Assembly: GCA_030532895.1 (NCBI GenBank)
Contig: JAUNKF010000002.1
Span: 186,001-250,000 of the forward strand
From: Lautropia sp.
GTDB taxonomy: Bacteria > Pseudomonadota > Gammaproteobacteria > Burkholderiales > Burkholderiaceae_E
Length of the DNA stretch: 64,000 nucleotides
Direction of reading: 5' to 3'
Shown: piece by piece, positions 22,087-29,143 of the stretch
Position numbering within the stretch: position 1 is the first letter of the stretch
How the letters are laid out: each line of letters starts with the position of its first letter
Position numbers and translations under genes: made by a program
The notes under the pieces: model-generated
Told to the model about the DNA's origin: nothing
Seen by the model: only the letters and a program-made list of their open reading frames with translations
Databases searched by the model: none

Positions 22087-22122
22087 TTCTTATAAATAAA
22101 CAAGAAATAGCCCGTTTTCTTG
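22087..22122 (+). promoter_or_regulatory. AT-rich leader with inverted repeats upstream of pflB
   Basis: TTCTT (22087-22091), CAAGAAA (22101-22107) and TTTCTTG (22116-22122): the last two form a perfect 7-base inverted repeat with an eight-base loop, and the first can pair alternatively with AAGAA. It lies just before the AGGAG of pflB, so it may be an operator or a leader hairpin. No full FNR box (TTGAT-N4-ATCAA) is present. Confidence 0.35.
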
Positions 22123-22146
22123 ATACAAAACATTCAGGAGTCGAAT

Positions 22147-24429
22147 ATGTTGGCCCCCACTAAGGCTCGTCCCCACGCTTGGATCGGTTTCACGTCCGGT
22201 GACTGGGAGAACACGATCGACGTGCGTGACTTCATCCAGAAGAACTACACGCCGTACGAGGGGGAGGGCGATTTTCTCGCGTCGGCCACCGAGGCCACGA
22301 AGCAGCTCTGGGCCGAGGTGATGGAAGGCATCAAGGTCGAGAACCGCACCCATGCGCCGTACAAGATCGATTCGCAGACGGTCTCCACCATCACGAGCCA
22401 TGCGCCCGGTTATATCGATCGTGAGCTGGAAAAGGTCGTGGGCCTTCAGACCGATGAGCCGCTCAAGCGGGCGATCATGCCCTTTGGTGGGCTGAAGATG
22501 GTGCAGGATGCCTGCAAGATCTACAACACGCCGCTGAACCCGGCCGTGGTCGAGACTTTCAGCCAATATCGCAAGACGCATAACCAGGGCGTTTTCGATG
22601 TGTACACGCCGGACATTCGCCGTTGCCGGAAGTCCGGTGTGCTCACGGGGCTGCCCGATGCCTATGGGCGTGGTCGCATCATTGGTGACTATCGCCGTGT
22701 GGCACTTTACGGTATCGACCGCCTGATGGCCGACAAGACCGAGCAGTACCACTCGCTGCAGGCCGATCTGGAGGCCGGGCGCAACCTGGAAGCCGTCATT
22801 CGTCGCCGCGAAGAAATCAACGACGAGCACAAGGCGCTGGCCGACATGAAGACGATGGCGGCCAGCTATGGCTTCGACATCTCCGAGCCGGCCGAGAATG
22901 CCCGGGAAGCGGTGCAGTGGATCTATTTCGCCTACCTGGCTGCCGTCAAGTCGCAAAACGGCGCGGCCATGTCCTTCGGGCGCGTGGCGAGCTTTCTCGA
23001 CATTTACATCGAGCGGGATCTGGCCGCCGGCACGCTGACCGAAACCGAGGCCCAGGAGCTGATCGATCACCTGGTGATGAAGCTCAGGATGGTGCGCTTT
23101 CTGCGCACGCCGGAATATGATCAGCTCTTCTCGGGCGATCCGATCTGGGCGACCGAGTCGATCGGTGGCATGGGGCTGGATGGCCGCACGCTGGTCACGA
23201 AGAACAGTTTCCGCTTCCTGAACACCCTCTACACGATGGGCGCCTCGCCCGAGCCGAACCTCACGGTGCTGTGGTCGGAGCAGCTGCCCGAGGGCTTCAA
23301 GCGCTTCTGCTCGAAAGTGTCGATCGACACCTCGTCGATCCAGTATGAAAACGACGACCTGATGCGGCCCGATTTCAACAGCGATGATTACGCCATCGCC
23401 TGCTGCGTGAGTCCGATGATCGTCGGCAAGCAGATGCAGTTTTTCGGCGCCCGTGCCAACCTGGCCAAGACGCTGCTCTACGCGATCAACGGCGGGCGGG
23501 ACGAAGGTACGAAGGAGCAGGTAGGCCCCGTCACCGAGCCGATCCTCGACGAGGTGCTCGACTACGACACGGTGATGGCGCGGATGGACAGCTTCATGGA
23601 CTGGCTGGCCACCCAGTACGTGACGGCCCTCAACCTCATCCACTACATGCACGACAAGTATTCGTATGAGGCCGCGCTGATGGCCTTGCACGATCGGGAT
23701 GTGGGCCGGACGATGGCTTGCGGCATCGCGGGCCTGTCGGTGGCGGCTGATTCGCTGTCGGCCATCAAGTATGCGCAGGTGCGCCCGATCCGCGATCAGG
23801 ACAATGTAGCCATCGACTTTCATATCGAGGGCGACTATCCGCAGTTTGGCAACAACGATGACCGGGTGGACAGCATCGCCTGCGATCTGGTGGAGCGCTT
23901 CATGAAGAAGGTGGCGAGCCATCCCACCTACCGGGATGCGGTGCCCACCCAGTCGGTGCTCACGATCACCTCAAACGTCGTCTATGGCAAGAAGACGGGC
24001 AACACCCCATGCGGGCGTCGGGCCGGTGCGCCGTTTGGCCCAGGGGCCAATCCGATGCACGGCCGGGATGTCTGCGGGGCCGTGGCCTCGCTCAGTTCGG
24101 TGGCGAAGCTCCCCTTCGAGTTTGCCAAGGACGGCATCTCCTACACCTTCTCGATCGTGCCGGGCGCACTTGGCAAGGACGAGGCGAGCCGTGAGCGCAA
24201 CCTTGCGGGGCTGATGGATGGGTATTTCCACCATGAGGCCGGCGTCGAAGGGGGGCAACACCTGAACGTGAACGTGCTCAATCGTGAGATGCTGCTGGAG
24301 GCGATGAACGACCCCGAGAAATACCCGCAGCTCACGATCCGGGTCTCCGGTTACGCCGTGCGCTTCAATTCGCTCACGAAGGAGCAGCAGCAGGACGTGA
24401 TCACCCGTACCTTCACGTCGAGCATCTGA
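22147..24429 (+). CDS. pflB: Formate acetyltransferase (pyruvate formate-lyase)
   Basis: 760 residues, identical in length to E. coli PflB. Active-site cysteine pair at 419-420 ([20 protein letters not shown]) and the glycyl-radical site RVSGYAVRF with Gly735. It converts pyruvate and CoA to acetyl-CoA and formate under anoxia. AGGAG lies seven bases upstream of the ATG. The activase gene pflA follows after ten bases; the formate channel gene focA, often upstream, is absent here. The enzyme needs strict protection from oxygen, so the organism must be at least facultatively anaerobic. Confidence 0.98.
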
Positions 24430-27120: not shown

Positions 27121-27996
27121 ATGAGAAGCACGAGCATCAGCCGCCAGTCGAGCATGGTGGCGGAGCTGAAGGCATTGCGCCGTGAGTATGCAGCTGCCCA
27201 GCAGCGTTGTAGCGTCACGATTGGCGCCCTCCATGCACGCAATGCCGAGCTGGAGGCAGAGGTTCTCCGCTTGCGTGCTGCGGTGGCGGCTCGGGACTCG
27301 GCCTTGCAGTGGGCCAAAGATGATCGTGTCCGTTTGCTGGCCACTTTGCCAGGGCTGCCGGCCCGCTTGACGCTGTTGGGGCGCATGGAGGCACTGGCCG
27401 ATAAGGTTCAGCACGTGCTGCGGCAGTTGCTCAGGCTGCAGGCTCAGGTTCGGGGGCAGACCCGAGAGCAGGCACAGTCGGCATCCCTTCAGGGTGGGGG
27501 GGCCCCGGCGAAGGCGGTGGATCAGGCGGGCTTTGAGTGGGCCTCGGGCGAGGTGTCCGCCGGTGCACATGCCGCGCCGGCCCACACGCCGCCGGTGGCC
27601 TCGGCCGGGCGCCATGCCTGGCGGGCCGAGGCAGATTGGGACGACGATGGCGCAGCCCTTGAAGAACGGCTGGATGAGGCCGATCTGGTGATATGTCAGA
27701 CGGGGTGTCTGAGCCACGCGGCGTACTGGCGGATGCAGGATCATTGCCGCCGGCACAACAAGCCTTGCGTGCTGGTTGAACAGCCTGATGCCGTGCGGGT
27801 CATCCGGATTCACCAGCGGGGCGAATCCGTGGTACCCGACACAATGCCTGGGCCGTCCTGCTCGGACACCGATGCAGAAGCGGGCAGAATGCTGGATACT
27901 ACAATGTCGACGATCACGATAGAAAATGTTGATGCAAGCGGTGCCGATGGGGCACCTGTCGTGCGACCGCCGATTTTTCGGCCGGATGAACATTGA
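27121..27996 (+). CDS. DUF2325 domain protein with coiled-coil N-terminus
   Basis: 291 residues. Residues ~10-115 form a predicted coiled coil (MVAELKALRREYAAAQQRCS, ELEAEVLRLRAAVAARDSAL). A Gly/Ala-rich linker follows. Residues ~185-225 match DUF2325: DEADLVICQTGCLSHAAYWR, then HNKPCVLVEQPDAVRVI. The cysteines in CQTGC and KPC are family-conserved and might bind metal or be redox-active. Function unknown. The stop codon overlaps an FNR-type palindrome, and fur starts 124 bases later in the same direction. Confidence 0.83.
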   Translation: MRSTSISRQSSMVAELKALRREYAAAQQRCSVTIGALHARNAELEAEVLRLRAAVAARDSALQWAKDDRVRLLATLPGLPARLTLLGRMEALADKVQHVLRQLLRLQAQVRGQTREQAQSASLQGGGAPAKAVDQAGFEWASGEVSAGAHAAPAHTPPVASAGRHAWRAEADWDDDGAALEERLDEADLVICQTGCLSHAAYWRMQDHCRRHNKPCVLVEQPDAVRVIRIHQRGESVVPDTMPGPSCSDTDAEAGRMLDTTMSTITIENVDASGADGAPVVRPPIFRPDEH

Positions 27997-28006
27997 TCGT
28001 GATCAA
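27993..28006. promoter_or_regulatory. Perfect FNR/CRP-FNR-type site upstream of fur
   Basis: TTGATCGTGATCAA equals the FNR consensus TTGAT-N4-ATCAA with no mismatch, 114 bases before the fur ATG. A partial copy (CGTGATCAA, 28028-28036) follows exactly 30 bases downstream, in helical phase. Confidence 0.6.
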
Positions 28007-28120
28007 AGTCAAAACATCGGTCTTCTGCGTGATCAAGAATGCTCGGAAGACAAGTCCTGCCATCGGCGGGCCTGTTTGCTCTCCCCAAGCGGGCAAGCAG
28101 CTTTCATCTCAGGAAGGTAA

Positions 28121-28558
28121 ATGAATACGCAGGATCAGGAGTTGCGCAGTGTGGGCCTGAAGGCCACGCTGCCTCGTATCAAAGTGCTCGAAATCATTCG
28201 CGGCAGTGATGAGCGTCACCTGTCGGCCGAGGATGTGTTCAGGCGGTTGCTTGAGCAGGGGCATGATGTGGGCCTGGCCACGGTTTATCGTGTGTTGTCG
28301 CAGCTTGAGGGCGCGGGGCTGTTGAGCCGCAACGTGTTCGACGGCGGCAAGGCCGTGTTTGAAATCAACGAAGGTGATGAGCACGACCACCTCATCTGCG
28401 TCAGTTGTGGCCGCGTCGATGAGTTCACCAATCCGGTCATCGAGAAGGTGCAGTACGAAGTGGCCGACGAGCATGGTTATGAGCTGGCCGAGCGCCGCTT
28501 GGCGCTCTATGGCATCTGCCCGGCATGCCGCAAGGGCGGCGGACGCGGCAGGAGCTGA
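28121..28558 (+). CDS. fur: Ferric uptake regulator
   Basis: 145 residues. Winged-helix DNA-binding part (LKATLPRIKVLEIIRGSDER, HDVGLATVYRVLSQLEGAGL) and metal-binding dimerisation part (HDHLICVSCGRVDEF with the CxxC, then ICPACRKGG with the second CxxC). Length, HLSAEDVF and the short C-terminal tail fit Fur rather than Zur or PerR. It represses iron-uptake genes when Fe2+ is abundant. AGGAAGG precedes the ATG. A perfect FNR-type box lies upstream, so expression may respond to oxygen. Confidence 0.95.
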   Translation: MNTQDQELRSVGLKATLPRIKVLEIIRGSDERHLSAEDVFRRLLEQGHDVGLATVYRVLSQLEGAGLLSRNVFDGGKAVFEINEGDEHDHLICVSCGRVDEFTNPVIEKVQYEVADEHGYELAERRLALYGICPACRKGGGRGRS

Positions 28559-28561
28559 CCG

Positions 28562-29143
28562 ATGGCAGGGCTTGCGCATTCTCCGCAGCAGGGGCAGGCC
28601 GCTGTCGAGGCGCTGTTGGGGCGGCATTCCGCCTGGCCGCTCGTCGGGCCGGCGCCGTCCGCTGACGAATTGGGCCGCCTCTTCGATCTGGCCCTTCGGG
28701 CACCGGATCATGGTGGGCTGAAGCCCTGGCGTTTCGTCACGGTCGAGGGGGCGGCACGGGAAAAGCTCGGCGACATCCTCGTGTCGGCTGCCGAGGCCCG
28801 TGGTGAGGAGAATGCGGAACGTTTTCGGGCCAAGCCGCTGTCGGCTCCGCTCGTGATCGTGCCGGCTGTCCGGTTGGTGCCGGTGGCCAAGGTGCCCGAG
28901 ATCGAGCAATGGATGTCGGGTGCAGCAGCCGTCATGAACATTCTCAATGGACTGTACCTGATGGGCTATGGCGGTTTCTGGGCAACAGGCGGTAATGCCT
29001 TCGACCCGGCCGTGCGTGACGCGCTCGGCTTCGAGGCGGATGAGCACCTACTGGGCTTTCTCTACGTGGGAACGCCCGGCCCCAAGGTTGAACCGAAGAA
29101 GCGTCCTGCCCGTGAGGCTTTCATCCGGGCCTGGCAGGGCTGA
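28562..29143 (+). CDS. Nitroreductase family protein (YdjA-like)
   Basis: 193 residues. DELGRLFDLALRAPDHGGLK, PWRFVTVEG, MSGAAAVMNILNGLYLMGYG and FWATGGNAFDPAVRDALGF match the small YdjA-type FMN-dependent nitroreductases, lacking the larger dimer-spanning insert of NfsB. They reduce nitro compounds or quinones with NAD(P)H; the natural substrate is unknown. It starts three bases after the fur stop, so the two are co-transcribed. Confidence 0.92.
   Translation: MAGLAHSPQQGQAAVEALLGRHSAWPLVGPAPSADELGRLFDLALRAPDHGGLKPWRFVTVEGAAREKLGDILVSAAEARGEENAERFRAKPLSAPLVIVPAVRLVPVAKVPEIEQWMSGAAAVMNILNGLYLMGYGGFWATGGNAFDPAVRDALGFEADEHLLGFLYVGTPGPKVEPKKRPAREAFIRAWQG

Follow-up and report, generated by a model that had tools for sequence, protein, structure and literature searches.

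The fur locus

The sequence studied is a window of 64 kb from a draft genome of 3.64 Mb (G000) belonging to Lautropia, a betaproteobacterial genus associated with the mouth. A gene for a DUF2325 protein is followed by fur, whose identity is also backed by the closest solved structures of its product, and then by a nitroreductase-family gene that, judging by the spacing, is possibly co-transcribed with fur (Table 1). The first-pass annotation had placed an exact FNR palindrome before fur, overlapping the DUF2325 stop codon, and the coordinates agree: TTGATCGTGATCAA matches TTGATNNNNATCAA fully, holds the stop codon (27994-27996) and is separated from the fur ATG (28121) by 114 bases. No other perfect TTGATNNNNATCAA lies in the window, and dinucleotide shuffles gave a mean of 0.02 perfect matches per window, with at least one in 2 of 100 shuffles. 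A control that allowed one mismatch counted 129 sites with the pattern as it stands and 7 with it reversed. We set it aside, since the reversed pattern contains TAG and coding sequence is where many such sites lie.

Table 1. Features around fur and at pflB, in positions of the window
Feature	Position	Strand	Remarks
pflB	22120..24429	+	ORF from TTG 22120; activase gene behind
DUF2325 gene	27121..27996	+	Pfam PF10087, 40.5 bits; stop codon within the box
Alternative candidate promoter GATACTACAAT	27895..27905	+	in the 3' end of the DUF2325 gene; GATACT common to G000, G006, G008 and G004
Perfect FNR box TTGATCGTGATCAA	27993..28006		palindrome, 10/10 specified bases of TTGATNNNNATCAA; perfect also in G006
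25-base block (box plus AGTCAAAACAT)	27993..28017	+	identical in G000 and G006
Half-copy CGTGATCAA	28028..28036	+	probably chance; absent from G006
Candidate fur -10, AAGAAT	28035..28040	+	conserved in G006; 35.5 bases from the box centre
fur, ferric uptake regulator	28121..28558	+	145 aa; NCBIfam NF006999, 164.1 bits (cut-off 146)
Nitroreductase-family gene	28562..29143	+	Pfam PF00881; 3 bases past fur

A half-copy of the box, CGTGATCAA, does recur 30 bases downstream, as had been reported, but the phasing ascribed to it did not hold up. The window contains exactly two copies (27998-28006 and 28028-28036) where 0.70 are expected, at least two copies were seen in 14 of 100 shuffles, and, being 30 bases apart, the two are only roughly in helical phase. 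In the sister species, G006, CCCAGTCAAGAAT stands where G000 has CGTGATCAAGAAT. We rejected a phased half-site since G006 lacks CGTGATCAA and yet has the adjoining TCAAGAAT, and for want of the half-copy in G006 we regard the one in G000 as probably a chance repeat.

The statement that pflB carries no FNR box was also correct, in that no match with 0-1 mismatches was found upstream of it; the closest FNR-like site has two mismatches and lies at 22120, at the ribosome-binding region. The true start of pflB looks likelier to be ATG 22147, after AGGAG, than the TTG at 22120.

FNR and its boxes in the genome and the genus

The first-pass annotation had left two things to be looked for in the genome, an fnr or anr gene and other boxes, and both are there. 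The fnr product (L001:826-1764) passes NCBIfam NF008365 with 229.7 bits (cut-off 228), and most of it aligns with the solved FNR 5cvr, the four cysteines and the ETxSR helix falling in register; we take the former to be the cluster ligands and the latter the recognition helix. By sequence, then, G000 encodes a true FNR with cluster cysteines. Two other Crp/Fnr proteins, one CRP-like and one DNR-like, score above the Pfam HTH_Crp_2 cut-off, and two further matches fall below it. The best solved relative of the DNR-like protein (G000:C46) is DNR 3dkw, at 75.8 bits.

Five perfect boxes occur in G000, between hemN and fnr and before nirK, feoAB, fur and suhB, where about 1.1 per genome are expected by chance. 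Relaxing the pattern to TTGAYNNNNRTCAA (C/T and A/G at the inner positions) gave 15 sites, eight of which precede hemN/fnr, fur, feoAB, nirK, ccoN, qNor, nosZ or hmp, the last four being newly brought in by boxes relaxed at one base; the other seven are the suhB site and six at which no anaerobic gene is evident. Across nine Lautropia genomes, G000 included, there are 35 perfect boxes. Fourteen have no clear assignment, and the 21 assigned ones stand at hemN/fnr (6), qNor (5), nirK (4), nosZ (2, in tandem in G001), fur (2), feoA (1) and ubiU (1). G006 has exactly three, at hemN/fnr, nirK and fur. Gene names at boxes were family-checked for the genes of G000 and for ubiU, and the qNor starts were checked; the remaining congener genes were named by similarity of protein starts. 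In G001 the tandem perfect boxes before the nosZ-like gene (L155:1485-1518) are 20 bases apart.

Because a true FNR is encoded and perfect or near-perfect boxes precede hemN/fnr, nirK, feoAB, ccoN, qNor, nosZ and hmp, and classic FNR-type targets have boxes in congeners also, the motif appears to mark a working anaerobic regulon in this genome, to which fur probably belongs. The regulator acting at the box could nevertheless be a different one. DNR-type proteins bind FNR-like boxes, G000 encodes such a Crp/Fnr protein, and nirK, qNor, nosZ and hmp all have boxes of this kind, so that fur might respond to nitric oxide through a putative NO sensor and not directly to oxygen. We consider this very unlikely, as the hemN/fnr and ccoN boxes are typical of FNR and nothing ties the DNR-like protein to fur.

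The feoAB box (L005:1501-1514; G000:C8:81809-81822) is perfect and lies 289 bases ahead of the genes, with CATGAT at class II distance. G006 has no feo box with two or fewer mismatches, and G003 and G007 have boxes with one mismatch; given these differences, FNR input to feo seems variable within the genus. No classical 19-base Fur box was found near feoAB with three mismatches allowed. The suhB box (L006:1501-1514; G000:C14:8014-8027) is likewise perfect, 35.5 bases from a perfect TATAAT, but is probably a chance match because the promoter is kept in the genus and the box is not (two mismatches in G006).

Conservation of the fur box

The Fur proteins of G000 and G006 are 97% identical. Upstream of the two genes, 25 of 25 bases agree at the box block, against 74 of 100 in the preceding flank and 58 of 86 in the following one. 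When match positions were shuffled, a run of at least 25 arose in 289 of 20,000 trials (about 1.4%), which makes this a test of modest strength. G000 and G006 each contain a single copy of the block, and the other seven of the nine genomes have none with three mismatches allowed; this copy number rules out a mobile or repeated element.

The DUF2325-fur order is found in eight Lautropia species, only two of which (G000 and G006) have the box. It is absent from the DUF2325-fur loci of G001, G002, G003, G004, G007 and G008; G003 and G008 have two-mismatch matches 481 and 1134 bases upstream. Because these six species lack it, the fur box appears lineage-specific, either gained in the branch of G000 and G006 or kept only there, and we think it was probably newly acquired. 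G005 was left out of the fur comparisons because its best Fur is 61% identical and no DUF2325 gene precedes it; that assembly also has no close FNR or FeoB match and is perhaps misplaced or mixed.

Wider comparisons excluded the box as a general feature of fur. A search of 61 genomes gave matches in 59, and among the 30 fur loci read from those listed, a box without mismatches within 1200 bases upstream was found in G000 and G006 only; G018 and G036 have one-mismatch boxes some 900 bases from fur. We also compared 80 named fur loci, mostly from beta- and gammaproteobacteria, including that of Lautropia sp. isolate S28M_Sa_6 (L075), whose Fur is 89% identical and whose record seems identical with that of G003. 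None of the 80 has a perfect box within 300 bases upstream of fur (144 bases were readable at L082), three Acinetobacter loci have one with a single mismatch, and 19 have one with two. Recurring TTGCTGGATATCGA-like matches near fur are presumably coding sequence of the neighbouring bamE.

These comparisons bear on an alternative in which the palindrome has no function at fur and is either a chance match or a fading one. About one perfect box per genome is expected, the suhB box is apparently such a case, and six congeners do without a box at fur. Set against this are the 25-base identity with G006 between drifting flanks and the position of the box, before a regulator gene and in a regulon that also holds feoAB, and we think a functionless match quite unlikely.

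Promoter geometry

In class II activation, FNR binds a box near -41.5, and the clear FNR promoters of Lautropia follow this layout, with the -10 at a set distance from the box. The distance from the box centre to the start of the -10 is 29.5 bases at qNor (five congeners and G000), nosZ of G001, feoA of G000 and ccoN, 28.5 or 29.5 bases at hemN in six genomes (CATGCT), and 30.5 bases at nirK of G000 and G006. The rule is imperfect because nirK of G001 and G002 and nosZ and hmp of G000 deviate from it, no clear -10 hexamer being found there at 29-30 bases. A gonococcal FNR site at 41.5 is given in the excerpts of PMC1802743.

At fur, AAGAAT is the sole -10-like hexamer present in both G000 and G006 at 22-48 bases from the centre of the box. 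Its distance to the fur ATG is 86 bases in one species and 89 in the other, and its alignment with CATAAT of G001, G002 and G007, at 83-87 bases, supports it as the fur -10. No class II layout, in which the -10 would begin 29-30 bases away from the centre of the box, was found there: the candidate -10 starts at 35.5, which would place the box near -47 and so half a turn away from where FNR activates. With 4 of 6 bases, AAGAAT makes a weak -10 and could be a chance match, in which case the spacing argument is void; the same offset of 35.5 is seen at suhB, where the box itself is probably chance. From the alternative candidate promoter, GATACTACAAT, transcription is predicted to start about 90 bases upstream of the fur box. 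At fnr itself, a TATAAT stands so near the box that the -35 region would fall partly within it, a placement that resembles autorepression.

Class II activation of fur by FNR, which is how we take the control implied by the first-pass annotation, is thus ill suited by the spacing to the one conserved -10-like hexamer. FNR could still activate fur in low oxygen from an unrecognised class II promoter. The box is perfect and kept in G006, and weak -10 and -35 elements near it would suit an activated promoter, but the hexamers at 28.5-30.5 bases (CGTGAT, GTGATC and TGATCA) show no -10 signature and are not kept in G006, and we regard activation as unlikely.

We favour interference over activation because of both placements, near -47 for one candidate promoter and downstream of the other. 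The palindrome would be a functional FNR site of the G000/G006 branch, and FNR most likely lowers or fine-tunes fur in low oxygen, being half a helical turn off the class II position and downstream of the second candidate promoter; we place about as much belief as doubt in this reading. FNR carrying its [4Fe-4S] cluster would, in low oxygen, bind the palindrome before fur and lower or tune fur transcription, either by promoter interference or as a roadblock to read-through. FNR binding, the position of the fur promoter and the sign of the effect are all things that we infer here, with repression by FNR slightly favoured. The original proposal that oxygen limitation directly controls fur is partly supported: it gains from the fnr gene, the regulon and the box in G006, but it is weakened by the absence of the box from six of eight species.

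Relation to known oxygen and iron circuits

Lautropia resembles the FNR regulons of the E. coli and Neisseria type in its consensus TTGATNNNNATCAA, in the type of regulator and in related targets. Excerpts of PMC3688515 report E. coli FNR peaks at Fur-repressed iron genes, including feoABC, and FNR joining Fur at several iron operons, and the part of PMC1802743 consulted gives the same consensus for gonococcal FNR, with the nitrite reductase gene aniA as a target. In the literature searched, which took in few subscription journals, no paper was found that places an FNR box at fur itself, and it is in this box that Lautropia differs. Most likely, fur is a new and lineage-specific addition to the targets of a well-known regulator.

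Two circuits come close. ArcA is a two-component response regulator with a different site, and it too is an anaerobic regulator acting on fur transcription, for which the candidate in Lautropia is FNR. A passage of PMC6828653, citing Liu and De Wulf 2004 and Boulette and Payne 2007, states that ArcA represses fur without oxygen in E. coli and Shigella, and the outcome that we propose for fur would be the same; on fur, the excerpts of PMC3212961 and PMC4601167 have nothing relevant beyond a citation of Boulette and Payne. Haemophilus influenzae also has direct wiring between Fur and FNR but in the reverse direction, with Fur repressing fnr (PMC12345214, in excerpt).

A more specific version of our preferred reading is possible but doubtful, namely that FNR represses fur without oxygen while activating feoAB, one lineage having been newly wired by a single new box. 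If FNR does both, the oxygen sensor would set the amount of the iron repressor as well as the import of ferrous iron. If the fur box works as we propose, it would be a clear case of the link from oxygen to iron being rewired among close species, since a single genus shows the same gene order in some species with the box and in others lacking it, and would offer a small natural experiment in how one global regulator comes under another.

The boxes also sketch an anaerobic regulon for this oral genus, on which no work on FNR control was found among the titles and abstract beginnings searched. Perfect boxes in G002 (L161:1548) and G007 (L057:1501) stand about 290 bases before what is apparently one and the same exported protein, which is unnamed and may be an as yet uncharacterised target of FNR. 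In G008, a perfect box (L054:1501-1514), with AAGAAT at 30.5 bases, lies 207 bases before the gene for an exported and apparently substrate-binding protein, which to our eye resembles siderophore-binding proteins.
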